Assembly: GCA_029260735.1 (NCBI GenBank)
Contig: JAJDCR010000077.1
Span: 1-64,000, forward strand
Reading direction: 5' to 3'
DNA: 64,000 nt
Source: Planctomycetota bacterium
Lineage (GTDB): Bacteria > Planctomycetota > Uabimicrobiia > Uabimicrobiales > Uabimicrobiaceae
Shown here: positions 33,129 through 46,175 of the stretch, piece by piece
How the letters are laid out: each line of letters opens with the position of its first letter
Numbering within the stretch: position 1 is the first letter of the stretch
Notes under the pieces: model-generated
The model's database searches: none
Seen by the model: only the letters and a program-made list of their open reading frames with translations
What the model was told of the DNA's origin: nothing
Translations under genes and position numbers: made by a program

Positions 33129-33971
33129 CTAGTCTGTTTGTTTTCGATCCTGAATCTCTTGGCAAATTTTATCTTCTAGAAGAGCCAGTTCTTCCGTTGT
33201 TTTAGCTGATTGGACTTGGCTAGCATATTTTTCCTTAAGAGCAGAAGAAATCCATCCTAGAACTTTGAGCAATTCTTCAACCCGCCCTTCGATTTTGCCT
33301 TCAACTTTGCCTTCGAGTCGTCCCTTATCGGTAATTTGCTTAACAAAACTCATGAAGTTCTCCTCATTAATTTTTAGCATAATTTGCTGGATAACATTAG
33401 TATTAGGTAAATCCTGAGAGAGGATTTTCGGCCATTGCTTAAGTTGTTGATTTTTTTCTGCCTCTAAAACTTGTAGAAGAGCCAAGGCTTCTCCTTGGAG
33501 TTCATTTCGAGCTCCTCTTAGAACGAGAAAGTAAATATCCAAATCTTTCAGAAAACGGGAACGATATTTCCATTTGTTTATCGGTTCAATAGCGTATTCT
33601 TTTATGGCAAAGAGTTTTTCTGGTTTTCTGCTCGTTATAATCGTTAAGGTGGTTTCTCCTTGTAAAGACAAGTTGGCGTAATGGCTTTCCATAAACAAGG
33701 CTCTTGCGACATAGTAGCGAAAGACGTTCTCACTCAGAATCTCTCGGAAACTTTTGTACTCCAAAATATTTGCTTTTTTTAGGTGATCGAAGGGGCGGAG
33801 TAAATTGTCTTTCGGTAAATCACCTTCTGTTTCGCAGTAGTAGTCCACCTTAAAAAACTTTTGAAACTCGCGCTCTTGCTTAGATATTTTCTTTCCCGAA
33901 AGCAGAGGAAGATGTTCATCTAAGATATCTTGAATAATACCATGCCAATCTACATTCTCTTGCTTCTTCAC
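33129..33971 (-). CDS. Rpn-like/PD-(D/E)XK nuclease-family protein
   Basis: A 280-residue protein. The segment around residues 60-80 (LRPFDHLKKANILEYKS) contains a candidate ExK of the PD-(D/E)XK fold, and the C-terminal third has a Gly/Lys repeat region (KGRLEGKVEGKIEGRVEELL) seen in many Rpn/YhgA-like and DUF4351-type proteins. These families are linked to recombination-promoting or defence-related nucleases and are often present in many copies per genome. The assignment rests on pattern only. There is no partner gene next to it. The C-terminal repeat of GKVEG units suggests a slippage-prone segment. Confidence 0.65.
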   Translation of the reverse strand: MKKQENVDWHGIIQDILDEHLPLLSGKKISKQEREFQKFFKVDYYCETEGDLPKDNLLRPFDHLKKANILEYKSFREILSENVFRYYVARALFMESHYANLSLQGETTLTIITSRKPEKLFAIKEYAIEPINKWKYRSRFLKDLDIYFLVLRGARNELQGEALALLQVLEAEKNQQLKQWPKILSQDLPNTNVIQQIMLKINEENFMSFVKQITDKGRLEGKVEGKIEGRVEELLKVLGWISSALKEKYASQVQSAKTTEELALLEDKICQEIQDRKQTD

Positions 33972-34617: not shown

Positions 34618-36036
34618 ATGGGTAATTCCAATTTAAGACAGTCTAGAACCGCAAACCTATTCGGTAAGATTCTTAGCAATGAAGTTTTTGGTTTTTTGGC
34701 TCTGCTGACTTTATTTCTGGCCTTTATTCCAGATATTTTTGACCTTTCCGCTCAAAGCCAGGGTCTGCTAGAATATATTGAGTTCTTAATTCTTATTATT
34801 TTTGTTATTGAGTACTGTATTTCTTTTGCAAATTCCACCGATAAAAAAGCGTTTCTCATAAATCCGTGGAGAATTCTTGATGCATTGATAATCCTATTGG
34901 GCCTGTTATCGCTGACGCCAATTCTAAATGACATGTTTCGCAACACTCCCGCATTGCGTCTTTTTCGATTTTTTCGTCTAGCTTTATTCGGCACCAAATC
35001 CAGTAGTGTAATCGTTTCAAAGTCGAAGCCAGCTATCATGGCGAACGCAATTAGTGATCAATCGATGGAGACGTTATCTTTGAAATATGGCCAGAATGCG
35101 CAATTTCAGAAAATATCTTTCGATGCAGCAATAGAAGATATTTTGTCACCGCAAGACACACTTATTCTAATTTCCAACCCTGAGAAGGGTGTACTTCAAC
35201 AAGTTGCGACTTCTCTAGAAGTATCAGAGACAATGCTGCGCAACCGGTTTTACGCATCTCATTTCCCGCGTATCGAGCGAATGGAAAATTATACAACGTT
35301 GTTTTTATGGTATCCGGTCATTCAGGATGACGAGATCAGCGGTGTGCCGACAATTGCTCGAACTGGTGTCCTTTTTGTCGGTTCAAAGAATAATTTGGTC
35401 ATTCTAACTCAGTCAAAAACGGAGCTCCCATTATCTATTGTCTCGCAGCTCAACGAGAAAGATTCTGATCAGCTTGCATTTAAATCAACATTAGCCCTTC
35501 TGAAAAACCTTAATCAAAGTTACACTCAAATCAATGACCAACTGGAAACATCACTATTTCGTATAGAGAGTCAGCATCACAATTTCGACGACAAAACATT
35601 TCTCAGCCTTACCTTTAAGTTACGCGGTGAGCTGAGCAGAGTCCGAAGCAGTTTAAAACATCTTGGTAACGTTCTCAAACAGCTTGCTGAAAAGCCCGTC
35701 GCCATCAAGTCATTCCCAACGGAACCTCGACCGGAGTTTTCTATACTAGCGGAAGATACAGAAAGCCTGCATGAGAGCATTGACTATTTATTATCGACAC
35801 TTTCCGCACTAGTTGATCTTCGTTTAAATGTATCCTCTTTTCAGCTCAATAAGGTTATGCGTTTGCTTGCATTGCTTACGGCGTTGGCATTAATCCCAAC
35901 TGTTACAGGCGGTCTTCTGGGGATGAACCTGATGGAAAGCCCTTGGCCTATATCTCTTTCGCAGGTTTCATTCGGTATTGCCGTGGGTATGATACTTTGT
36001 CTCTATTTATTTGCAGTTAAGGGCTGGTTAAAGTAA
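34618..36036 (+). CDS. voltage-sensor-like domain fused to CorA-type cation transporter
   Basis: A 472-residue protein. Residues about 25-130 hold four hydrophobic segments; the fourth has regularly spaced basic residues (ALRLFRFFRLALF), like the S1-S4 unit of ion-transport channels. From about 145 onward it follows CorA: a soluble alpha/beta part, a long helical stalk, then two C-terminal transmembrane helices with the CorA signature loop (TGGLLGMNL; GMN near 438). Normal CorA proteins are about 320-370 residues, so the N-terminal membrane domain is extra. The expected role is Mg2+ or other divalent-cation transport, perhaps voltage-tuned. Codon and residue use look unlike the neighbours, suggesting transfer. 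The start has a GAGGA ribosome-binding sequence. Confidence 0.85.
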   Translation: MGNSNLRQSRTANLFGKILSNEVFGFLALLTLFLAFIPDIFDLSAQSQGLLEYIEFLILIIFVIEYCISFANSTDKKAFLINPWRILDALIILLGLLSLTPILNDMFRNTPALRLFRFFRLALFGTKSSSVIVSKSKPAIMANAISDQSMETLSLKYGQNAQFQKISFDAAIEDILSPQDTLILISNPEKGVLQQVATSLEVSETMLRNRFYASHFPRIERMENYTTLFLWYPVIQDDEISGVPTIARTGVLFVGSKNNLVILTQSKTELPLSIVSQLNEKDSDQLAFKSTLALLKNLNQSYTQINDQLETSLFRIESQHHNFDDKTFLSLTFKLRGELSRVRSSLKHLGNVLKQLAEKPVAIKSFPTEPRPEFSILAEDTESLHESIDYLLSTLSALVDLRLNVSSFQLNKVMRLLALLTALALIPTVTGGLLGMNLMESPWPISLSQVSFGIAVGMILCLYLFAVKGWLK

Positions 36037-36091
36037 GCAGCCGCAGATGCGACATTTATGGATATGAAAGCTAGTTCTTTTGTTGTTTTGG

Positions 36092-36122
36092 CCAGAGGAT
36101 TTGTGGAGTAAGAGGGTAATTT
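36092..36122 (+). repeat. imperfect direct repeat, right flank of CorA-fusion gene
   Basis: Partner of the 34110-34142 copy, with the core GATTTGTGGAGTAAGAGGG. It lies in the 237-bp gap after the CorA-fusion gene, which otherwise shows no gene or strong terminator. Confidence 0.5.
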
Positions 36123-36273
36123 AGGAGAGTTGGTAATATAGTATTGACGGAGAGTGACGGCTTATAAGCTGCTATCGTATGTTTAGTGTGATAGAATAAT
36201 TAGGGAAAAATCTTGTTTTCTCTGTGAGATAATATTTTGAAAAATTAGTTAGTTGAGTCAGCTAGCACAAAAT

Positions 36274-36615
36274 TTAACCTTCTTCTAATTCTCTCAAAGC
36301 CTTTCGTACTGCTAACAGAATAAACGCTTGTATTTCATCATCCTCAGTGTATCCTTTTTCTGCTAGGCGTTCTCTGTCATTTATAGACAAAGCAAACATT
36401 AAACTTTCAAGTTTGTCGGTTTTTTTTGATTTACTTTGTTGATATTCTTCGACACTAGCGATTGTTACAGTGTGTTTTTTACCTTGTTTGGGCCCACCTA
36501 CAAGTATTCCTTCATTCTTTTGTTGGCCAACTCGTCGAGCTGTAACTCCCATAATGTTTCCAGCCACTTCTAGAGTCAAATGCTTATTATCTTTCGCTTT
36601 ATCTTTCTTTTTCAA
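36274..36615 (-). CDS. small HTH/excisionase-like DNA-binding protein
   Basis: A 113-residue basic protein. Residues about 12-60 (LTLEVAGNIMGVTARRVG...GGPKQGKKHTVTIASVEEY) resemble a MerR/excisionase-type winged helix that reads DNA and ends in the typical ASVEEYQQSK element. The C-terminal half is a helical, acidic region. The function is likely transcriptional control or DNA architecture; no specific family is claimed. Its upstream region carries an inverted repeat (36635-36688) that could be its operator, and a three-copy tandem repeat lies 200 bp further upstream. No partner gene sits on the same strand. Confidence 0.6.
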   Translation of the reverse strand: MKKKDKAKDNKHLTLEVAGNIMGVTARRVGQQKNEGILVGGPKQGKKHTVTIASVEEYQQSKSKKTDKLESLMFALSINDRERLAEKGYTEDDEIQAFILLAVRKALRELEEG

Positions 36616-36634
36616 TTCTTTCTTTCTAAAAAAT

Positions 36635-36688
36635 AAGCCCTTTAGTGAAACTAGCCTGTGCTAAAATTTACATTCCACTAAAGGGCTT
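36635..36688. promoter_or_regulatory. 13-bp inverted repeat upstream of the HTH gene
   Basis: Arms AAGCCCTTTAGTG (36635-36647) and CACTAAAGGGCTT (36676-36688) are perfect complements 28 bp apart, 20 bp upstream of the ATG of the minus-strand HTH gene. The spacing fits an operator pair or a leader hairpin. A second small hairpin (CGTAG/CTACG) follows at about 36720-36734. Confidence 0.45.
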
Positions 36689-36825
36689 CTGAAAAATATA
36701 TAAAATTCGATTTTACTCCTCGTAGTTAGACTACGATATGACAAATTTAAAAACACATAAATCAAAATTAATAATAATATGTAACCTGAAATTTATTAAT
36801 AAAAATATTTATCGTTCTAAATAAG

Positions 36826-37288
36826 ATGACTACAAATACTAATTGCACATAAAGTTATATAACTAAAAAATTTCTTTTTCGTTATCCTCCTTCAGCAAAG
36901 AGTAAAATATTTTTGTCTTGTTTATTCTACATTTATAGCATTGCACTATCAAAATTCACTAAATACACTTCTAAAAAAACATTAACATGACTACAAGTAC
37001 TAATTGCACATAAAGTTATATAACTAAAAAAATTTCTTTTTCGTTATCCTCCTTTAGCAAAAAGTGGAATCGTTTATATTGTTTTTCCTTTGTATATTAT
37101 GTTTATAGCATTGCACTATCAAAATTCACTAAACACACTTCTAAAAAAAACAGTAAAATGACTATAAATACTAATTGCCCATAAAGTTATATAATCAGAA
37201 AAATTTCTTTTTCGTTATCCTCCTTTAGCAAAAAGTGAAATCGTTTATATTGTTTTTCCTTTGTATATTACTTTATAGCATTGCGCTA
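36826..37288. repeat. three-copy noncoding tandem repeat, 161-171 bp period
   Basis: Copies start at 36826, 36987 and 37158, each with ATGACTA.AA.TACTAATTG; the third is shorter at its end. Each unit carries a TTTCTTTTTCGTTATCCTCCTT block and ends in TTATAGCATTGC. Copies 1 and 2 also carry a perfect 12-bp palindrome AGTTATATAACT; copy 3 has it degraded to AGTTATATAATC. No open frame runs through it. The long spacing and lack of variable spacers exclude CRISPR. The array lies between the HTH gene and the A-PCP-reductase operon. Confidence 0.85.
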
Positions 37289-37859
37289 CATTACAGAAAA
37301 TATATGATATATTTTCCAGATTTTCAATTTTCTTGCCAGTTATTCACGTGGCAACGTTACGAAGGAAGTATACCTACCAAATCGAAATTTGTCAAATATA
37401 TTTCCAAAAAAAATATAAAAAAATCCTAAACCTATACAAAGCAAATAATTACATAAAAAGAAATTTTTCTTTTTGCATTTCGATTTAGAAATACGCACTA
37501 CTTATACAATACCTGAAAAACATGCATTTAATCTAGGCCTATATTTTATAAGGTTTAGTCTCGCCAGGCAACAATAGCATTAAGTTAAGCTGTAGCCTTT
37601 GCATTTCTTTCCCCTCCGGTGGATTTTGCGTGAAATTCTTTTCTTTCTTCAACTTTAAGGCCCACTCTTTTCACTGTACCTTAAAATATGCAAATCAAAA
37701 TGCCTGTTTTTTCTTCTTATTTTTTCTATCCTTTAGTCCCCTTTAGCCCTTTTTTGTTTTCGTTTGTGAGAAGCCTGTAATAATAAATTTTTAGGGACTT
37801 CTTTTATCCTTTCACAAATCTAACTCCAACTCAGAGAGATACACTTCAACCAAAAAAAT
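37289..37859. other. gene-free stretch before the A-PCP-R operon
   Basis: No supported gene. It is A/T-rich. Around 37745-37810 there is a copy of a dispersed word (TTTTTTGTTTTCGTTTGTGAGAAGC, then an A/T run and CTTTTATCC) that also occurs at about 27091-27140 inside MITE-like element 1. A candidate promoter begins at its right edge. Confidence 0.5.
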
Positions 37860-37889
37860 TTGATCCAAAGGGACAAGATATGGTTTAAT
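37860..37889 (+). promoter_or_regulatory. candidate sigma70 promoter of the A-PCP-R operon
   Basis: TTGATC (37860-37865), an 18-bp spacer and TTTAAT (37884-37889) give a plausible -35/-10 pair, placing transcription start about 45 nt before the ATG at 37941. Pattern only; this region is A/T-rich so chance matches are common. Confidence 0.35.
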
Positions 37890-37940
37890 AAATTATTTCC
37901 CTTAACAAAACAGAATAGTAACAAGAGAAAATGGCGAATA

Positions 37941-38861
37941 ATGAAAGCTTTAGTTAAACAAAATGAAGTTGTAACGCTTCAAGATGTGACCTTGCCCCAA
38001 ATAGCAGCAAATCAAGTATTGATTAAGGTGGCTTGTGCTAGTTTATGTCGCACAGATGTGTTTGCGGCAGAAGGAAAAATTGCGACAAAAAATCCTCTCA
38101 TTTTGGGTCATGAGATGGCAGGTACAGTTGTCGAAACGGGGTCGAATGCTACTCTTTTAGTAAATCAAGAGCGGGTTACTGTCAATCCTGTGATTCCCTG
38201 CTATAGCTGTGACTTTTGTATGAGAGAGGAGTATAGTGATTGTCAAAACACTAAGTTTTTAGGGGTTTGGCTAGATGGTGCTTTTGCCGAGTACATTGCT
38301 GTTGACCAGCGCTGTGTTTATCCTATTGCCGATGACTTATCTTTTGTTGAGGCCACTTACTCTGAGCCGGTGGCTGCTTCTTTGGCTGTGATAAAGGCTG
38401 ATATTAAGCCTCAGCACTGTGGTTTAATTTATGGTGACAACCGTATCGCCCATTTGACCTTGCGCATTTTAGAAGCTCATGGTTTTGATAATGTTACGAT
38501 TCACTCTACTGGACAAAATTTAATTTTGAATCACTACGACTTCATTATTGAGACTCTTGCCACAACGAAAACGCTTAGCGATATGATTGCAGCAATTCGA
38601 CCGCGAGGTTTAATTGTTTTTAAAAGTCGCCAATACCAAGCCGTTAATTTACAACTTCATAAAATTCTTGCCAAGGAACCGCGTTTTCAAGCAGTGAACT
38701 ATGGTTGCTTTAAAGAAGCGATCCAATTGTTGAGCTCTCGTAAAATTCAGGTCAGCGATTTAATTGGACAAATGTACCGCCTAGATGATTTTGAAGAGGC
38801 TTTTCAAGATTCGCTGAAAAGCGAAGCGCGTAAATTGTTTTTTCAAATAGGAAATGCTTAA
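37941..38861 (+). CDS. zinc-dependent MDR alcohol dehydrogenase-like protein
   Basis: 306 residues counted from the ATG at 37941; an upstream in-frame start (37860) would add an unlikely 27-residue leader. It shows the medium-chain dehydrogenase layout: catalytic zinc ligands Cys36, His57-Glu58 (GHEMAG) and probably Glu142, and structural zinc cysteines 87, 90, 93 and 101 (CYSCDFCMREEYSDC). The cofactor-binding loop is degenerate, reading YGDNRIAHL at about 164-172 where family members have a Gly-rich GxGxxG. At 306 residues it is shorter than the usual 340-350. It is the first gene of a six-gene operon; the stop overlaps the next start (TAATG). The role is likely oxidation or reduction of the pathway alcohol or aldehyde, or a non-canonical activity given the altered loop. 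Confidence 0.85.
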   Translation: MKALVKQNEVVTLQDVTLPQIAANQVLIKVACASLCRTDVFAAEGKIATKNPLILGHEMAGTVVETGSNATLLVNQERVTVNPVIPCYSCDFCMREEYSDCQNTKFLGVWLDGAFAEYIAVDQRCVYPIADDLSFVEATYSEPVAASLAVIKADIKPQHCGLIYGDNRIAHLTLRILEAHGFDNVTIHSTGQNLILNHYDFIIETLATTKTLSDMIAAIRPRGLIVFKSRQYQAVNLQLHKILAKEPRFQAVNYGCFKEAIQLLSSRKIQVSDLIGQMYRLDDFEEAFQDSLKSEARKLFFQIGNA

Positions 38862-40753
38862 TGTGTGGGATTATTGCAGTAAAACTGCAGCAGGGTATTG
38901 TCGAAACAGACAAGCTACAGTTGGCCTTGGACACTTTGCATACGAGAGGTCCGGATGGGGAGGGCTTATGGCAAAGTGATTCTCGGCAAGTCGCTCTTGG
39001 TCATAAACGCCTCAGTATAATTGGTCTTGGCAATAGTCAGCAGCCGATTAGCAATGAAGACAAGACCATTCACATAGTTGTTAATGGTGAATTTTATGGT
39101 TTTGAAGAAATACGCACAAAGTTAGAGGAACAAGGCCATCAATTTCAAACCGATTCGGATAGCGAAATTGCTTTACATCTCTATGAGCAATACGGATTAG
39201 ATTGTTTAGATTATTTGCGCGGCGAGTTTGCCTTTGTTCTCTATGATGAAAAGAAAGAGCAGTTGTTTGCGGCCCGAGATCGTTTTGGGATAAAACCACT
39301 TTGCTATGCTATTGTCGAGAATAATTTATTTATTGCTTCCCAAGCGAAAGCTTTATTTGCTTTAGGAGTAGAGAAGTATTGGGATCATCAGTCGCTCTTT
39401 CACAGTTGCCATATGCAGTATGTTTTGCCCGATAGAACCTTATTTAGAGGGATAACCCAGTTGCAACCGGGTTATTTTCTAATAGCAAAGGACAAAAAAC
39501 TTACTAGCCATTGCTATTGGGATAGCAATTATAGTTCCTCTGTTAAGAACTATGATGCCAACGAATTAATCGCCCAATTTCGGGATATTTTCAGTGAAGC
39601 TGTAAAATTACGCCTACGAGCAGATGTCCCTATTTGTTGCCATTTAAGCGGAGGTTTAGATTCCAGTGCCGTTTTGGGACTAGCCGTAAAATACTCAAAT
39701 AAACCGATACCGGCTTTTTGTGTTAGCTTTAGCGAACAAAACTACAATGAATTAGCTATTGCCAAGGAAACAGCACAGTTAGTAGGAGTGCCTTTACACG
39801 TGGTGCCCATTAGCCAAGAAAAACTTATCGCTCATTTATCTGATGCTGTTTATGCGAGCGAAGGCATTGCTATCAATGGTCACCTTCCTGCCAAATATTT
39901 ACTGAATCAAGCGATTAGACAAGCGGGCTACAAAGTAGCCTTAACCGGTGAGGGTTCCGATGAAGTGGTCGCCGGTTATCCCCATTTCCGTATGGATTTA
40001 TTAAGACAGCAACAAAACCATCAAGAAATGGAAAGCTTGCAACAAAAGAACTTAGCTTCTGTCGGCATTATGCTTGCAGAGGGCAATAGCTTAAGCACGG
40101 ATGCTATTTTACAACGCTTAGCTTTTGTCCCGAGTTTTTTGCAAGCTAAGGCTAGCTTGGGTTATAAATTAAGAGGGTTCCTAAGCGAGGATTTTAAGCA
40201 GTCGTTTGTGGCAAAAGATAGTTACCGTGATTTAATGAATCATATCACTGCTGATTTGACCTCCTTTGAGCAAGTGAATCAATCTATGTATTTATGGCAA
40301 AAGACATCTCTTCCTAATTATATCTTGAAAACCCTCGGCGATGGTTGCGAAATGGCTCATAGCATTGAAGGGCGCTTGCCTTTTTTAGATCATAAATTAT
40401 TTGAATTTGTCCAGACTCTTCCTACGAATTTAAAAATCAATAAGCTTGTGGAAAAATACATTTTACGCGAAGCCACCCGCGATGTTTTAAGCGAGCGCGT
40501 TTATAAGCGGCAAAAGCATCCCTTTGTTGCTCCTCCAATAAGCGTCTTTAGCAGCCACAGCAGCCACGAAATGATGAATGATTTATTAACTAGCCAGTCA
40601 TTTTGCCATCTATCTATTTTTAACCATGCTAAGGTAGCTGAGTTACTGGCTATGTGTCAAAAAAAGGATAGCCGGCAGCAAGTTTTTGATCCCGTTCTAC
40701 TGACCATTTTATCCATTGCTATTTTAAATCAATGCTACCAACTAAAGGAATAA
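38861..40753 (+). CDS. AsnB-type glutamine-dependent amidotransferase/synthetase
   Basis: A 630-residue asparagine-synthase family enzyme. The N-terminal nucleophile Cys2 (MCGII) begins a class II glutaminase domain with RGPDGEG near 27-33. The synthetase half has the pyrophosphate loop SGGLDSSAVLG near residue 263, and EGSDEV further on. Canonical enzymes make Asn from Asp; homologues in natural-product loci amidate other carboxylates or, in the beta-lactam synthetase branch, close rings. Because Cys2 is intact, it probably uses Gln as ammonia donor. It starts inside the previous stop codon and ends 3 bp before the methyltransferase, so it is translationally coupled. A pathway role is inferred from context. 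Confidence 0.93.
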   Translation: MCGIIAVKLQQGIVETDKLQLALDTLHTRGPDGEGLWQSDSRQVALGHKRLSIIGLGNSQQPISNEDKTIHIVVNGEFYGFEEIRTKLEEQGHQFQTDSDSEIALHLYEQYGLDCLDYLRGEFAFVLYDEKKEQLFAARDRFGIKPLCYAIVENNLFIASQAKALFALGVEKYWDHQSLFHSCHMQYVLPDRTLFRGITQLQPGYFLIAKDKKLTSHCYWDSNYSSSVKNYDANELIAQFRDIFSEAVKLRLRADVPICCHLSGGLDSSAVLGLAVKYSNKPIPAFCVSFSEQNYNELAIAKETAQLVGVPLHVVPISQEKLIAHLSDAVYASEGIAINGHLPAKYLLNQAIRQAGYKVALTGEGSDEVVAGYPHFRMDLLRQQQNHQEMESLQQKNLASVGIMLAEGNSLSTDAILQRLAFVPSFLQAKASLGYKLRGFLSEDFKQSFVAKDSYRDLMNHITADLTSFEQVNQSMYLWQKTSLPNYILKTLGDGCEMAHSIEGRLPFLDHKLFEFVQTLPTNLKINKLVEKYILREATRDVLSERVYKRQKHPFVAPPISVFSSHSSHEMMNDLLTSQSFCHLSIFNHAKVAELLAMCQKKDSRQQVFDPVLLTILSIAILNQCYQLKE

Positions 40754-40756
40754 TAG

Positions 40757-41521
40757 ATGCCTTCGGAACAAAATTGGTTAAAATCTTTTTACGAATTAGA
40801 AGCACTTGCCGATTTACTTTTAGAACGCTCTAACTCCGATGAGCTAAAAAACACTTTGCAGTTTTTACAAAAGCATTTGGCGATTCAACCTGGAGACACT
40901 GTTTTCGACCAAGGGTGTGGTATTGGCAGCATTAGCATTCCCTTCGCCAAAAAAGGCATGAGAGTAATTGGAGTGGATTTATCTCAAAACTATATTGAGC
41001 GGGCGAAAAAACAAGCCCAAGAAGAGGGCTTATCTTGTCATTATCACTGCGCAGATGCCCTAGAGTTTGTAAGTGAAATCCCTTGCGATGCTGCTTGGAA
41101 CTGGTTTACCAGTTTTGGTTATAATCAAGATGACCGGGTCAATATCAAAATGCTGGAGTGTGTCTTTCGCTCTCTTAAACCAGGAGCGAAATTCGTGCTG
41201 GACTATCAGAATATCGCAAATATTATTAAGAATTTTAAAACGACTATCAAAAAAGAAGGAATAAGTGATGGGCGTAAAGTAGTTCTCACTCGCAACTGTC
41301 GTTTAAATTTTGTCACCGGGATGATCGAGCAGCAATGGAGCTATGTTTTTGTCAATGAAAAAATTGTCCGAAAGAGTTTCCTAAAAATGTATCTCCCTCA
41401 TCAGTTGAAACTTATGCTGGAGCAAGTGGGTTTTGTCGATGTCGTTATTTATGGTGATTTGGCCGAAAATGAATTGACTTCGGATAGCTCACGTTGTCTT
41501 TGTGTCACGAGGAAACCATGA
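40757..41521 (+). CDS. SAM-dependent class I methyltransferase
   Basis: A 254-residue protein. Motif I, VFDQGCGIGSISIPFAKKG (about residues 50-68), is followed by an acidic ribose-binding residue (VIGVDLS, about 73-79). These are the core of Rossmann-fold methyltransferases of the Methyltransf_25/11 type. The substrate (N-, O- or C-) cannot be told. It starts 3 bp after the AsnB stop and its stop overlaps the oxygenase start by 4 bp (ATGA). It is likely a tailoring methylation in the same pathway. Confidence 0.9.
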   Translation: MPSEQNWLKSFYELEALADLLLERSNSDELKNTLQFLQKHLAIQPGDTVFDQGCGIGSISIPFAKKGMRVIGVDLSQNYIERAKKQAQEEGLSCHYHCADALEFVSEIPCDAAWNWFTSFGYNQDDRVNIKMLECVFRSLKPGAKFVLDYQNIANIIKNFKTTIKKEGISDGRKVVLTRNCRLNFVTGMIEQQWSYVFVNEKIVRKSFLKMYLPHQLKLMLEQVGFVDVVIYGDLAENELTSDSSRCLCVTRKP

Positions 41522-42360
41522 TGATTAGTCATATTTTGCCTGAAACAGGCGAAGAGATCAGGCGTGCCGTCTATAACGGTGCGGTTTTTAAAATAACAGA
41601 TAGCGTTATCGGCCAAGATTTAGCAGCAGAGATCGGAGAAATTGTTACAAGTGAACTAGGCGAGCCTATTCGTGAGGCTCAATTTCGCTTAACGGAGGAA
41701 CAGTTTTTTCAACAAATTGGCAAGTTACGAAAAAAATTTTATAGCGAGAGTTATTTTCATGATAAATTGCGCCAAGTTATAAACCACTATGGTTTTAGCG
41801 ATAGAGAACACGCTTTTGATCCTATGCGATTGCGAGTAGTTGCTCATGAGGGTTACAAAAATCCAAGTGCGGCTCCCGTTTACTATGGCCACAGGGATAC
41901 TTGGTATGGTAATCCGCAGAATCAAATCACTTGGTGGCTTGCCTTACATGACGTCGAGGAGCAGGATACTTTTGTCTTTTATCCTGATTACTTTCATCAG
42001 GCCGTTGCGAATGATTCAGAATGTTTTGATTATGATAGCTGGACGAGCAAAAGTAAAGACCTCAAAATAGGTTGGCAAAATTCTAATTCAGGGCGTGAGG
42101 CTCTCTATCCTCAATTGCGCGAAAACCCAGAGTCTTTTGACAATGTTTATTTTTCTGCGAAGAAGGGCGATATCCTTGTTTTTGCCGGACAACATTTACA
42201 CCAAACCCTAAAAAATAATACGGGTTTAACCCGCTTCAGCATAGACTTCCGCACAGTACATTTAGAAGATCATGAGAAAGGGATCGGGATTCATAACGTA
42301 GACAATCGTTCCACAGGCTCTGCTTTAAAAGGACATATTTGGCCTCAGGAAATATCATGA
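41518..42360 (+). CDS. 2-oxoglutarate/Fe(II) oxygenase-like protein (PhyH-like)
   Basis: About 280 residues from the ATG at 41518, which has a good AGGA ribosome-binding sequence. A facial-triad candidate is HxD in YGHRDTWYG (about 125/127) plus the distal His in QHLHQTLKN (about 228), and a 2OG-anchoring Arg in RFSIDFR ten or so residues later. This fits the phytanoyl-CoA dioxygenase-like group of 2OG oxygenases, which hydroxylate, desaturate or halogenate small molecules; Asp in HxD argues against halogenation. It overlaps both neighbours by 4 bp (ATGA) and so belongs to the same operon. Confidence 0.82.
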   Translation: MMISHILPETGEEIRRAVYNGAVFKITDSVIGQDLAAEIGEIVTSELGEPIREAQFRLTEEQFFQQIGKLRKKFYSESYFHDKLRQVINHYGFSDREHAFDPMRLRVVAHEGYKNPSAAPVYYGHRDTWYGNPQNQITWWLALHDVEEQDTFVFYPDYFHQAVANDSECFDYDSWTSKSKDLKIGWQNSNSGREALYPQLRENPESFDNVYFSAKKGDILVFAGQHLHQTLKNNTGLTRFSIDFRTVHLEDHEKGIGIHNVDNRSTGSALKGHIWPQEIS

Positions 42361-45194
42361 CATTATTTACGGAAGCTTTTCGTCAAGTAGCTAAAGAACA
42401 TGGACAAAGAATCGCTATTAGCCTAGATGGTAAGCCTTTGTGGACTTACGAACAACTATACCACCGAGCCTTGTTTGTCGCAAACGAACTAAGTGATTGC
42501 GGAGTGAAAAACGAAGAAATTGTTGCCATTGCCATTAAGAAAAGCCCTGAATACATCGTTGCTATGCTCGGCACTTGGTTTAGTGGTGCCGCTTTTTTGC
42601 CATTAGATCCCTTGCTCCCAAACCAACGACAGCAATTTTTACTAAAAGATGCTAATGTTAAATTAGTTATTGCCAAAAGCCTCTGTAAATGGGACGACGT
42701 TTTGATTTGGCAATGGCGAGAGGGGGAGGCCGAGAGTGGACCAAAGATCACAGTTTCTCCAGAAAACTTGGCTTATGTTATTTATAGCTCAGGGTCAACT
42801 GGTCGGCCTAAGGGGATTGCACTAGAGCATAAGGGAATTTGTAACTTACTCTACCAGCAAATCAACGCCTTTGCCCTAGAGGAAACTAGTCGTGCTTTGT
42901 TTTACTTATCAACTAATTTTGATGCTGCGATCTCTGATATTGGCACCGCACTCTTAGCCGGAGCTAACTTATTTTTGGAATCAAATACTATTTTGCCAGA
43001 CCAACTGACATCTTTATTACGATTGCAAAAAATTAGCCACATTGATATGCCTCCATCCCTGCTCAAAGTTCTCCCTTTGCATGAGTTTCCTGATTGCCTA
43101 AAAACAATTATAATAGGAGGAGAAATTTGCCCACCCGCAATTGTCCGACAGTTTAGTCAGCGTTTTCGAGTGGTCAATGTTTATGGGCCCACTGAAACCA
43201 CCATTTGCACTAGCTTAGTTGTTTGTGACAAAGAAACTTGGACGCAGCCCTCCATTGGACAAGCACTTGATGGTGTTGATTATCAAGTGGTAGCAGAGAA
43301 TGGACAACTGGCCCAGATAGGACAATCGGGAGAGTTGTATATCTCTGGTATAGCTCTAGCACGCGGTTACATAAATCAAGATGCTCTGACCGCACAAAAG
43401 TTTATTTATTGGCAAAATCAGCGTTGCTACTGCACTGGCGATAAAATTTTAGTGACAGACACCGATCTGGTCTTTTTAGGACGCATAGATCGCCAAATTA
43501 AAATAAATGGCGTCTTAATTGCGCCAGAAGAGATTGAAGGGCAACTGCTTAAGCATCCTGATATTCATAAAGCTGCTGTTATTGAGCAGCAGCAATCATT
43601 AGTTGCTTTTATCGAAGGAGAAAAGCTCAGCCGATCACAGGTACGCGACCACTTAGAGAAACTTCTAAGTCCATGGCTATTGCCCAATTGCTATGAATTT
43701 ATCTCCCTGCCCATAACACTAACAGGGAAAGTCGATTACCAAAAATTACAAGCCCTCTCGAAGAAACAGATAAGAGAACAGCAGCATGGTTTAACGAATG
43801 AACAAAGAGTTTTAAGACAAATTTGGACTCAATTATTGGCAACGGATGTAAGTCTAGAGGACGATTTTTTTGATTTAGGTGGCGACTCCATTAAAGCTTT
43901 ACAAATGGTTGCTCTAGCCAAAGCGGAGGGACTTAATCTAAATACTTGTATGCTCCAAAGCCAGCGAACTATAGGTAATATTTTAGCCCATTTATCATAT
44001 GAACACATAGATGTTCTTGCTTGCGATTTTTTGGGTAGGGAAGCGCAAATAGCAGATAAGTTTCTCAGCTTTGCCAAAGAAAGAGCAGAAAACAGACAAG
44101 TTTCTGATCAAAATATATTGCTAACAGGTGCGACGGGTTTTTTGGGTTGCCACATTCTCTGGCAACTACTAGAAAAAAGCGACAGTGTTATCTACTGCTT
44201 AGTGAGAGGACAAAATCCAGAACATTGTCGAGAGCGATTGCTAGCGACTATGACTAAGTATTTTGGGCACGTTTCGCTAGTTGATCGAGTTGTCGTTGTT
44301 TGGGGAGATATAGCCCAACTTTATTTGGGTTTACCAGAAGAAGAGTGGAGTAAACTTAGTCGTAATGTAGGCGTGATCTATCATTGTGCTGCCGATGTAA
44401 ATTTAGTTGCCCCTTATCCAGAACTGAAGCAAGCCAATGTCACCGGAACATATGAAATACTGCGCTTGTTAACTCAGGGCTGCTATAAGTGCTTGCATTA
44501 TGCTTCGACATTATCGGTATTTGTCGCAAGTGATCAAAATCAGGGGTTACTTTTGGAAAGTGATGATCTTTGCACTACTCAAAACGTTTATGGTGGCTAT
44601 GCTCAAACAAAATGGGTTAGCGAAGTCATGCTCCGCAAATTTAGCAACTATATTCCCATATCTTTTTACCGCTTTGGTTTACTCACAGGTAATTCACAAA
44701 CAGGTTATGGCCCCGATGATTTATTAGCGATGTTTGTTCGTGGTGCTCGCCAATTAGGTTATCTCCCTCAAATGACCACAGATATTGCTCTAGACATTAC
44801 ACCTATAGACTACGCAACAAAGGCGATGGTATCCTTAGCCTCTAGTGGCTACTTTAACACCTACCATATTGCCAATGAGCAGAGTTTGTCTTTTGAGCAA
44901 TTAGTAAGTTATCTACAAAGTTTTGGAGTAAAACTAACTCTGTTAGAGCCCAAAAATTTTCGTAAAGAAATCGGCTTAGATAGTAAAAAAATAGAGCCCA
45001 CAGTAGCAGCTGCTCTTTTGGCCTTGTGCCGATTAGATCAAGCCAGTTTCCACTTAGGGAGAACTTTAGATCTATTTCAAGCAAGCAATGTAATTTTTAG
45101 CACAGAGAACAGCAAAAAAATCCTCAGCGAATTTACTTGCCCTTTGCCCAGTGAAAAACTGTTACATAGATATTTTCATCATATCTTGTCGTAA
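42357..45194 (+). CDS. single-module NRPS: adenylation-PCP-thioester reductase
   Basis: 945 residues from the ATG at 42357 (4-bp overlap with the previous stop, CAGGA ribosome-binding site). The A domain is residues about 1-480, with YSSGSTGRPKG and YGPTETTIC. The carrier serine is in LGGDSIKAL near 509. The reductase domain starts near 585 with TGATGFLG, and its active-site YAQTK is near 748. There is no C domain, so a single activated acid is loaded and reductively released as an aldehyde or alcohol. My manual pocket reading is D-A-S-D-I-G-V-I-C-K; the acidic residues at the third and fourth positions resemble pockets for basic amino acids (Lys, Orn, Arg), but this is a low-confidence guess. 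The architecture also resembles carboxylic acid reductases and Lys2. Confidence 0.93.
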   Translation: MTLFTEAFRQVAKEHGQRIAISLDGKPLWTYEQLYHRALFVANELSDCGVKNEEIVAIAIKKSPEYIVAMLGTWFSGAAFLPLDPLLPNQRQQFLLKDANVKLVIAKSLCKWDDVLIWQWREGEAESGPKITVSPENLAYVIYSSGSTGRPKGIALEHKGICNLLYQQINAFALEETSRALFYLSTNFDAAISDIGTALLAGANLFLESNTILPDQLTSLLRLQKISHIDMPPSLLKVLPLHEFPDCLKTIIIGGEICPPAIVRQFSQRFRVVNVYGPTETTICTSLVVCDKETWTQPSIGQALDGVDYQVVAENGQLAQIGQSGELYISGIALARGYINQDALTAQKFIYWQNQRCYCTGDKILVTDTDLVFLGRIDRQIKINGVLIAPEEIEGQLLKHPDIHKAAVIEQQQSLVAFIEGEKLSRSQVRDHLEKLLSPWLLPNCYEFISLPITLTGKVDYQKLQALSKKQIREQQHGLTNEQRVLRQIWTQLLATDVSLEDDFFDLGGDSIKALQMVALAKAEGLNLNTCMLQSQRTIGNILAHLSYEHIDVLACDFLGREAQIADKFLSFAKERAENRQVSDQNILLTGATGFLGCHILWQLLEKSDSVIYCLVRGQNPEHCRERLLATMTKYFGHVSLVDRVVVVWGDIAQLYLGLPEEEWSKLSRNVGVIYHCAADVNLVAPYPELKQANVTGTYEILRLLTQGCYKCLHYASTLSVFVASDQNQGLLLESDDLCTTQNVYGGYAQTKWVSEVMLRKFSNYIPISFYRFGLLTGNSQTGYGPDDLLAMFVRGARQLGYLPQMTTDIALDITPIDYATKAMVSLASSGYFNTYHIANEQSLSFEQLVSYLQSFGVKLTLLEPKNFRKEIGLDSKKIEPTVAAALLALCRLDQASFHLGRTLDLFQASNVIFSTENSKKILSEFTCPLPSEKLLHRYFHHILS

Positions 45195-45203
45195 GGATTT
45201 ATT

Positions 45204-46175
45204 ATGAAAAAAACTTCAGGAATGCTCTTGGGTAAATTTATGCCCTTGCATTTAGGCCATCTTTACCTAATTGAGTTTGCAAAAAACTATGTCGATGAGC
45301 TCTATGTTGTTGTGGGGACGATCAAGAGCGAAACGATGGAGGGAGATTTGCGCTATAATTGGGTTAGGCAAGCTTGTCCTGGTGTTAATGTAATACATCT
45401 GACAGATGAAAATCCGCAAGAACCACAAGAGCATCCCGACTTTTGGCAAATATGGTACAATAGCTTAACGCAGGTTTTACCAAATAAGCCCGATTATGTT
45501 TTTGCCTCAGAGAAGTACGGCCAGAAGCTAGCGGCAATTTTGCACGCCCAATTTGTTCCCGTTGATCAACTCCGCACCATTGTCCCGATTAGTGCTACTA
45601 AAATACGGAATGATCCAATGAAGTATTGGCAGTATATCCCTCGTCCAGTAAGACCGTATTACTGCAAGCGAGTATGTATTTTTGGCCCCGAATCTACAGG
45701 TAAGAGTACTTTAGCCTTAGATTTAGCTCATCATTTTAACACGGTTGCAGTGCCCGAGTACGCACGCACTCATTTAGAGGCAGGGGAAGGCAAAATAGAC
45801 TACAGTGATATAGCCAAGATTGCTCGGGGGCAAATGGCAAGTGAAGAGGCTTTAGCCCACAATAGCAATCGGGTAATTTTTTGCGATACCGATTTAGTTT
45901 TAACAACCATCTGGAGCGACTGGCTATTCCAAGATTGCCCCGACTGGGTTCTTGAGCAAGCAAATGAGCGCAAATACGATTTGTATTTAGTGACAGATAT
46001 TGATGTGCCTTGGGTGAAAGACCAGGTGCGCTATTTACCCAAGGAGCGGGAGTCATTTTTTAAGCGTTGTTTAGCCGAATTAGACCAGCGCGATTTACCT
46101 TACGTTGTTATTAAAGGAGACTGGGAGAAGCGTTTTGAAATGGCCATTGCAGAGGTTGAAAAATTATTTGCTTGA
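45204..46175 (+). CDS. nadR: NadR-like NMN adenylyltransferase/ribosylnicotinamide kinase
   Basis: A 323-residue bifunctional enzyme. The nucleotidyltransferase half has GKFMPLHLGH near residues 10-20 and ISATKIRNDP near 130-140. The kinase half has the Walker A motif GPESTGKST near 162-170. It lacks the N-terminal DNA-binding domain of enterobacterial NadR and is therefore a metabolic, not regulatory, version. The known activities make NAD from NMN and phosphorylate nicotinamide riboside. It starts 9 bp after the reductase gene, so it is part of the operon, which is odd for NAD salvage. It may supply cofactor or use an NAD-like precursor. Confidence 0.92.
   Translation: MKKTSGMLLGKFMPLHLGHLYLIEFAKNYVDELYVVVGTIKSETMEGDLRYNWVRQACPGVNVIHLTDENPQEPQEHPDFWQIWYNSLTQVLPNKPDYVFASEKYGQKLAAILHAQFVPVDQLRTIVPISATKIRNDPMKYWQYIPRPVRPYYCKRVCIFGPESTGKSTLALDLAHHFNTVAVPEYARTHLEAGEGKIDYSDIAKIARGQMASEEALAHNSNRVIFCDTDLVLTTIWSDWLFQDCPDWVLEQANERKYDLYLVTDIDVPWVKDQVRYLPKERESFFKRCLAELDQRDLPYVVIKGDWEKRFEMAIAEVEKLFA

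Follow-up and report, generated by a model that had tools for sequence, protein, structure and literature searches.

The three-copy tandem array described here lies in a window of 64,000 nucleotides (the whole stretch of DNA that was analysed). A duplicated control region is the most likely explanation for it, and features of this kind are fairly ordinary. In the more specific form that we tentatively prefer, it is a locus-specific triplication of a minus-strand promoter/leader segment of about 170 bp that belongs to an adjacent orphan gene. This reading accounts for the locus specificity of the array, for the orientation of its promoter-like elements, and for the position of a strong hairpin just upstream of the gene. 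An operator array and a neutral duplication are both serious rivals to it.

Organisation of the array

Tandem Repeats Finder (TRF) placed the array at 36822-37288, with a period of 171, 2.8 copies and 87% matches, and its score of 681 is the highest in the window; the copy number comes from a draft assembly, in which such repeats may be miscounted. The array is non-coding, and is flanked by a small minus-strand gene (36274-36615) and a plus-strand ADH/AsnB/A-PCP-R operon. A 1.264-Mb sample of the same genome, made up of the window and 60 stretches, has 641 ORF-free gaps, among which the gap that holds the array ranks fourth in length. The features of the locus are these:

36274..36615, minus strand: small orphan gene with a TTG start, whose 113-aa product may be a MerR-like/HTH_17-type DNA-binding protein
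36629..36688, minus strand: strong hairpin followed by AUUUUUU, a possible intrinsic terminator or attenuator
36822..36982, minus strand: unit 1, comprising block A, a diverged spacer and block B, with a palindrome at 36853-36864
36829..36910, minus strand: core hairpin of unit 1, GAAGGAGGATAACG around an internal loop
36932..36940, minus strand: extended -10-like TGCTATAAA of unit 1
36983..37153, minus strand: unit 2, with a palindrome at 37014-37025
36990..37072 and 37161..37243, minus strand: equivalent core hairpins of units 2 and 3
37102..37110 and 37272..37280, minus strand: TGCTATAAA in register in units 2 and 3
37154..37288, minus strand: unit 3, truncated after 17 nt of block B, with block A and the spacer present and the palindrome degraded
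37333..37354, minus strand: inverted repeat TTGCCA...TGGCAA, located where a minus-strand transcript is predicted to begin (-8.4 kcal/mol, z -1.94)
37367..37395, minus strand: sigma-70-like promoter match TTGACA-17-TATACT (11 of 12), facing the small gene across the array
37941..38861, plus strand: zinc alcohol dehydrogenase-like gene, the first of the divergent operon, with its ATG read from the sequence

Repeat units beginning at 36826, 36987 and 37158, as had been proposed from the letters alone, were recovered through a common start, ATGACTA(C/T)A, with spacings of 161 and 171. Read on the minus strand, the order within a unit is block B, which contains TGCTATAAA, then the spacer, and then block A, a nested imperfect hairpin. 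Column identity within block A is 95% across 83 columns. An AAGGAGG stretch sits at the internal loop of the block A hairpin, and this 7-nt core (AAGGAGG / CCTCCTT) is identical in all three units. The spacer shows strong divergence between units 1 and 2 and little between units 2 and 3. Of the 28 differences between units 1 and 2, 21 fall inside one 40-column spacer (out of 171 columns), a degree of clustering that none of 5000 permutations reached (mean 10.4). Divergence was thus concentrated in the spacer, and blocks A and B remained similar. Constraint on the two blocks is one likely source of this pattern, with recombination as an alternative. Most of block B is missing from unit 3, which counts against the preferred reading.

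Two kinds of short plus-strand frame overlap the array. An 8-codon ORF opening with ATGACTACA... is in frame at each of the unit starts (MTTNTNCT, MTTSTNCT and MTINTNCP at 36826, 36987 and 37158, respectively), and no Shine-Dalgarno sequence precedes it in the three units. A 64-aa ORF (37235-37429) is present at unit 3 only.

Locus specificity

A genome-wide search for the unit, one of the checks suggested by the sequence-only reading, returned the array as the sole locus in the 8.7-Mb genome (174 contigs, completeness 83%). The five other unit matches measure just 19-29 nt with E of 0.03-0.7, and the best two of these, in the stretches L004 and L005, fall within open reading frames. The finding that would have undone that reading, namely the unit at thousands of unrelated sites, did not emerge. 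Outside this genome, the whole array gave nothing convincing against 58 other genomes (two further matches, of 23 and 26 nt) and no match among phages and plasmids, and an exact 22-mer of the array is absent from the genome contigs and viral contigs searched. A covariance model of the core recovers the three units and found nothing in 20 other genomes; because of the latter result, the preferred reading draws no comparative support.

Several other origins can be set aside on these grounds. A dispersed repeat or mobile-element relic was rejected, as the searches of the own genome, the 58 other genomes, phages, plasmids and 22-mer contigs all came back without copies, and the earlier suggestion of an integrated element falls with the same results. 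Iteron origins contain multiple short direct repeats of about 17-22 bp, so a period of 161-171 is the wrong length for the iteron-like origin that had also been proposed, and a Pfam scan found no replication initiator among the 16 ORFs covered (eight that included the orphan gene, and eight more). The same 16 ORFs, orphan gene included, gave no ParA/ParB, which argues against a partition site.

We then see how the array compares with others in the 1.264-Mb sample. Seven non-coding TRF rows have a period of at least 40, and four of these combine a period of at least 100 with a score above 400. The array in the window is the sole one of the four restricted to its own locus; the sequences of the other three (L124 12235-12779, L122 18726-19129 and L122 17623-17867) recur across the sample.

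These comparisons bear on the possibility that the array is a functionless relic, now in slow decay, of a segment that was duplicated in tandem twice within an intergenic region that is AT-rich and unusually long. Such a history fits the lack of conservation in relatives, the decay of the palindrome and the truncation of unit 3, and agrees with the folding data given below, where there is no covariation and nothing exceptional in stability. The genome does contain other long-period arrays, but those that are non-coding and score above 400 are dispersed families and not single-locus duplications. Neutral decay also sits poorly with the way in which units 1 and 2 diverged, unevenly and with blocks A and B kept. 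On balance we regard a neutral origin as rather unlikely.

Two dispersed repeat families were observed in the genome, some copies of which are arranged in tandem or occur in both orientations (L122 17354-19226 and L124 12235-12779, with further examples in L039, L095, L096 and L042). Near-identical genes occur at L004 1264-2286 and L005 1258-1955, the L005 copy being divided into two ORFs. We take these to resemble Rpn/PDDEXK transposase-like proteins, and a gene in the window (33129-33971, minus strand) may be of the same kind.

The palindrome and the small protein

The palindrome AGTTATATAACT is perfect in unit 1 (36853-36864) and unit 2 (37014-37025) and takes the form AGTTATATAATC in unit 3, in agreement with the sequence-only reading. 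A search of the 8.7-Mb genome, likewise suggested there, located it at just the two array sites. A control string, the palindrome reversed but not complemented, occurs four times in the same genome, and a difference of two sites against four says little by itself. One correction is needed: the 12-bp palindrome is a portion of a longer imperfect inverted repeat of about 65 nt, and it lies in the 3' arm of the block A hairpin. The AAGGAGGATAACGAAAAAGAAA stretch is intact in all three units, and the palindrome in just two.

The small gene scores as coding, with 0.261 per codon. Of 937 chunks from real genes, 90% score below this value, and of 1850 wrong-frame chunks all but 0.16% do. No relatives of its product were found in 58 other genomes, in genome and viral contigs, or among plasmids and phages, and no Pfam or NCBIfam family was matched at threshold; the weak Pfam rows obtained (E 0.012 and 0.087) are to unrelated families. 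A weak match to PHROG 57 (terminase small subunit) covers residues 14-66 with E 0.055. Residues 12-61 were also compared with an HTH_17 profile, built from 15 segments of the same genome that were taken from 19 matches. This gave a score of 19.1 (P 0.0028), which 0 of 100 shuffles reached (best shuffle 15.0), at an HHsuite probability of only 11%. A single-sequence structure model, of unusable confidence (pLDDT 43.9), shows no HTH. The gene had earlier been called an HTH gene. Its coding character is borne out, and the HTH assignment is weakly supported. Block A was also considered as a copy of the start region of the small gene, and this was rejected since a score as high as that of the shared GAAAAAGAAA was obtained for 12% of 600 control starts.

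An operator array was one of the possibilities raised in the earlier account. In such an array a MerR-like/HTH_17-type product of the small gene would bind each unit at AGTTATATAACT and at half-sites related to it, would repress its own promoter, and may control the divergent ADH/A-PCP-R operon, in the manner of BldC-like proteins on repeated sites. Some of its elements hold up: the array is specific to the locus, its palindrome is confined to it within the whole genome, and the coding gene adjoins a divergent operon. The HTH_17 alignment, with no shuffle as high, and the PHROG 57 match are consistent with a DNA-binding product, but the protein matches no family at threshold and its structure model contains no HTH. 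An operator array should present the same site in every repeat, and the palindrome is perfect in two of three units, broken in unit 3 where AAGGAGGATAACGAAAAAGAAA is not; its rarity means little alone. We judge an operator array to be unlikely. A repeat of 161-171 bp, far longer than a protein site, sets the locus apart from the BldC-type systems, as do its weakly supported HTH and its putative protein binding. The locus does resemble these systems (PMC5859096) in that repeated DNA adjoins a gene for what may be a small MerR-like protein.

Promoter-like elements and the leader

The gap between the small gene and the operon (36616-37940, 1325 bp) contains exactly three extended -10 motifs, one in each unit and all on the minus strand; the plus strand of the same gap has none. 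The three TGCTATAAA motifs are one motif multiplied by duplication, and so are not independent. In units 1 and 2 only, a TTGATA -35-like hexamer is found at -35 distance from a later -10-like hexamer. The best sigma-70-like match in the gap is on the minus strand, with 11 of 12 positions compared with 9 on the plus strand. A score of 11 of 12 was also reached in 15 of 200 whole-gap shuffles, and this promoter match (37367-37395) is suggestive only.

An inverted repeat had been reported ahead of the small gene, and it is real: its 16-nt arms (36635-36650/36673-36688) are 94% complementary and finish in a perfect 13-bp end. On the minus strand it gives a hairpin that no other in the region matches in strength (-27.2 kcal/mol, z -5.73, range -5.73 to -6.10), ending about 14 nt ahead of the start codon. 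A terminator-like hairpin with a U-run (36688-36629, minus strand) is found directly before the coding sequence; it was overlooked by our terminator scan, which takes loops of 3-8 only. The predicted minus-strand leader as a whole (36620-37360) is more stable than each of 20 shuffled versions (z -3.03), with contributions from the repeats and the terminal hairpin.

Under the promoter/leader reading, block B of each unit would provide a start site at the extended -10-like TGCTATAAA on the minus strand, and block A would form an imperfect leader hairpin carrying a strong SD-like AAGGAGGATAACG devoid of a start codon. Transcripts from the unit starts, and perhaps from the possible TTGACA/TATACT promoter at 37395-37367, would produce a long leader towards the small gene, which would run into the strong hairpin and U-run just ahead of it. 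There the RNAs may end as non-coding products, or the gene may be attenuated. The effect of triplication would be to place more start sites and more leader hairpins ahead of the gene. Leader attenuators ahead of regulator genes are a known kind of system, and the locus is like them in having a strong hairpin and U-run directly before a start codon, but unlike them in its lack of a recognised aptamer, Rfam family or covariation.

RNA folding and the Shine-Dalgarno-like stretch

Whole units are close to shuffled sequences in stability, with z values for units 2, 1 and 3 of -0.45, 0.26 and -2.34 on the plus strand and -0.32, 0.51 and -1.20 on the minus strand; unit 3 on the plus strand is the exception. 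The core hairpins gave z values of -2.05 to -2.94 (minus) and -1.93 to -2.74 (plus), and because these are similar the core fold cannot choose between the strands. Among 1948 GC-matched folds from gaps of the same genome, 6-13% are as stable as the cores. We see no covariation in the core, as 0 of 23 pairs change on both sides, and 2 of 68 cells break pairing. No Rfam family was found in 36000-38000 at E up to 1, nor any intrinsic terminator inside the units in the scan with loops of 3-8.

The SD-like AAGGAGGATAACG in block A has no ATG, GTG or TTG at initiation distance. A small peptide made from this stretch was rejected for that reason, and also because no start-to-stop frame there is common to the three units; if ACG is taken as a start (by eye), the frame has about 21 codons in unit 1, but 6 in each of the other two. 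Just 3 of 202 ORFs have GGAGG in the 20 nt that precede their first ATG, but AAGGAGG has 27 occurrences in the ORF-free gaps of the sample (25 if gaps at stretch ends are left out), three of them within the array, and so is not unusual by itself. A CsrA sponge acting via AAGGAGGA was rejected, as CsrA was not found in this genome at its 83% completeness, in a search whose control was positive in 3 of 14 named genomes.

It is very doubtful that the units are tandem sibling sRNA genes, each acting in trans through the SD-like stretch or, from the plus strand, through a CCUCCUU anti-SD stretch. What speaks for such genes is the promoter-like element in every unit and the unchanged AAGGAGG / CCTCCTT core, but no unit has its own intrinsic terminator, no Rfam family was matched up to E 1, and whole-unit energies are near those of shuffles. 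A precedent is available in the NmsRA/NmsRB tandem sibling sRNAs of Neisseria meningitidis, which carry anti-SD motifs (PMC5362039). The two systems share similar intergenic tandem units, a promoter-like element per unit and CCUCCUU on one strand; the present array, known from sequence alone, differs in its missing per-unit terminator, its unexceptional structure and its lack of relatives anywhere searched.

A bolder version of the promoter/leader reading holds that the start-codon-less SD hairpins bind idle 30S subunits, and that termination at the terminal hairpin before the orphan regulator depends on how many units are occupied. We consider this a long shot; if true, the locus would be a ribosome-sensing attenuator with copy-number gain. 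If the leader reading itself is true, the locus shows on a small scale, and cleanly, how a promoter/leader unit has been multiplied before an orphan gene and beside a probable biosynthetic operon; if it is false, the array is an ordinary intergenic duplication. A literature search on planctomycete small RNA and intergenic tandem repeats found nothing. The lineage has little regulatory data, and strand, start sites and attenuation are all directly testable.

Gene neighbourhood

Beyond the ADH gene, the divergent operon continues in the order AsnB, methyltransferase, PhyH, A-PCP-R. The full row in the window (37941-46175, plus strand) comprises the alcohol dehydrogenase, an asparagine synthase, a methyltransferase, a PhyH-type oxygenase, an A-PCP-reductase, and a nucleotidyltransferase/AAA_28 gene that is presumably NadR-like, and is probably a small biosynthetic cluster. 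At the limit used, no protein in five relatives or elsewhere in the genome was more than 35% identical to the A-PCP-R protein; the matches obtained besides the window's own are adenylation-type and 31-35% identical. On the other side of the orphan gene, the product of 34618-36036 (plus strand) is a fusion in which an Ion_trans domain precedes a CorA domain, and no match to this CorA neighbour was found at 1e-20 in five relatives of the same order. A single ORF of 7739 aa (468-23687, minus strand), predicted to encode a giant protein, takes up more than one third of the window.
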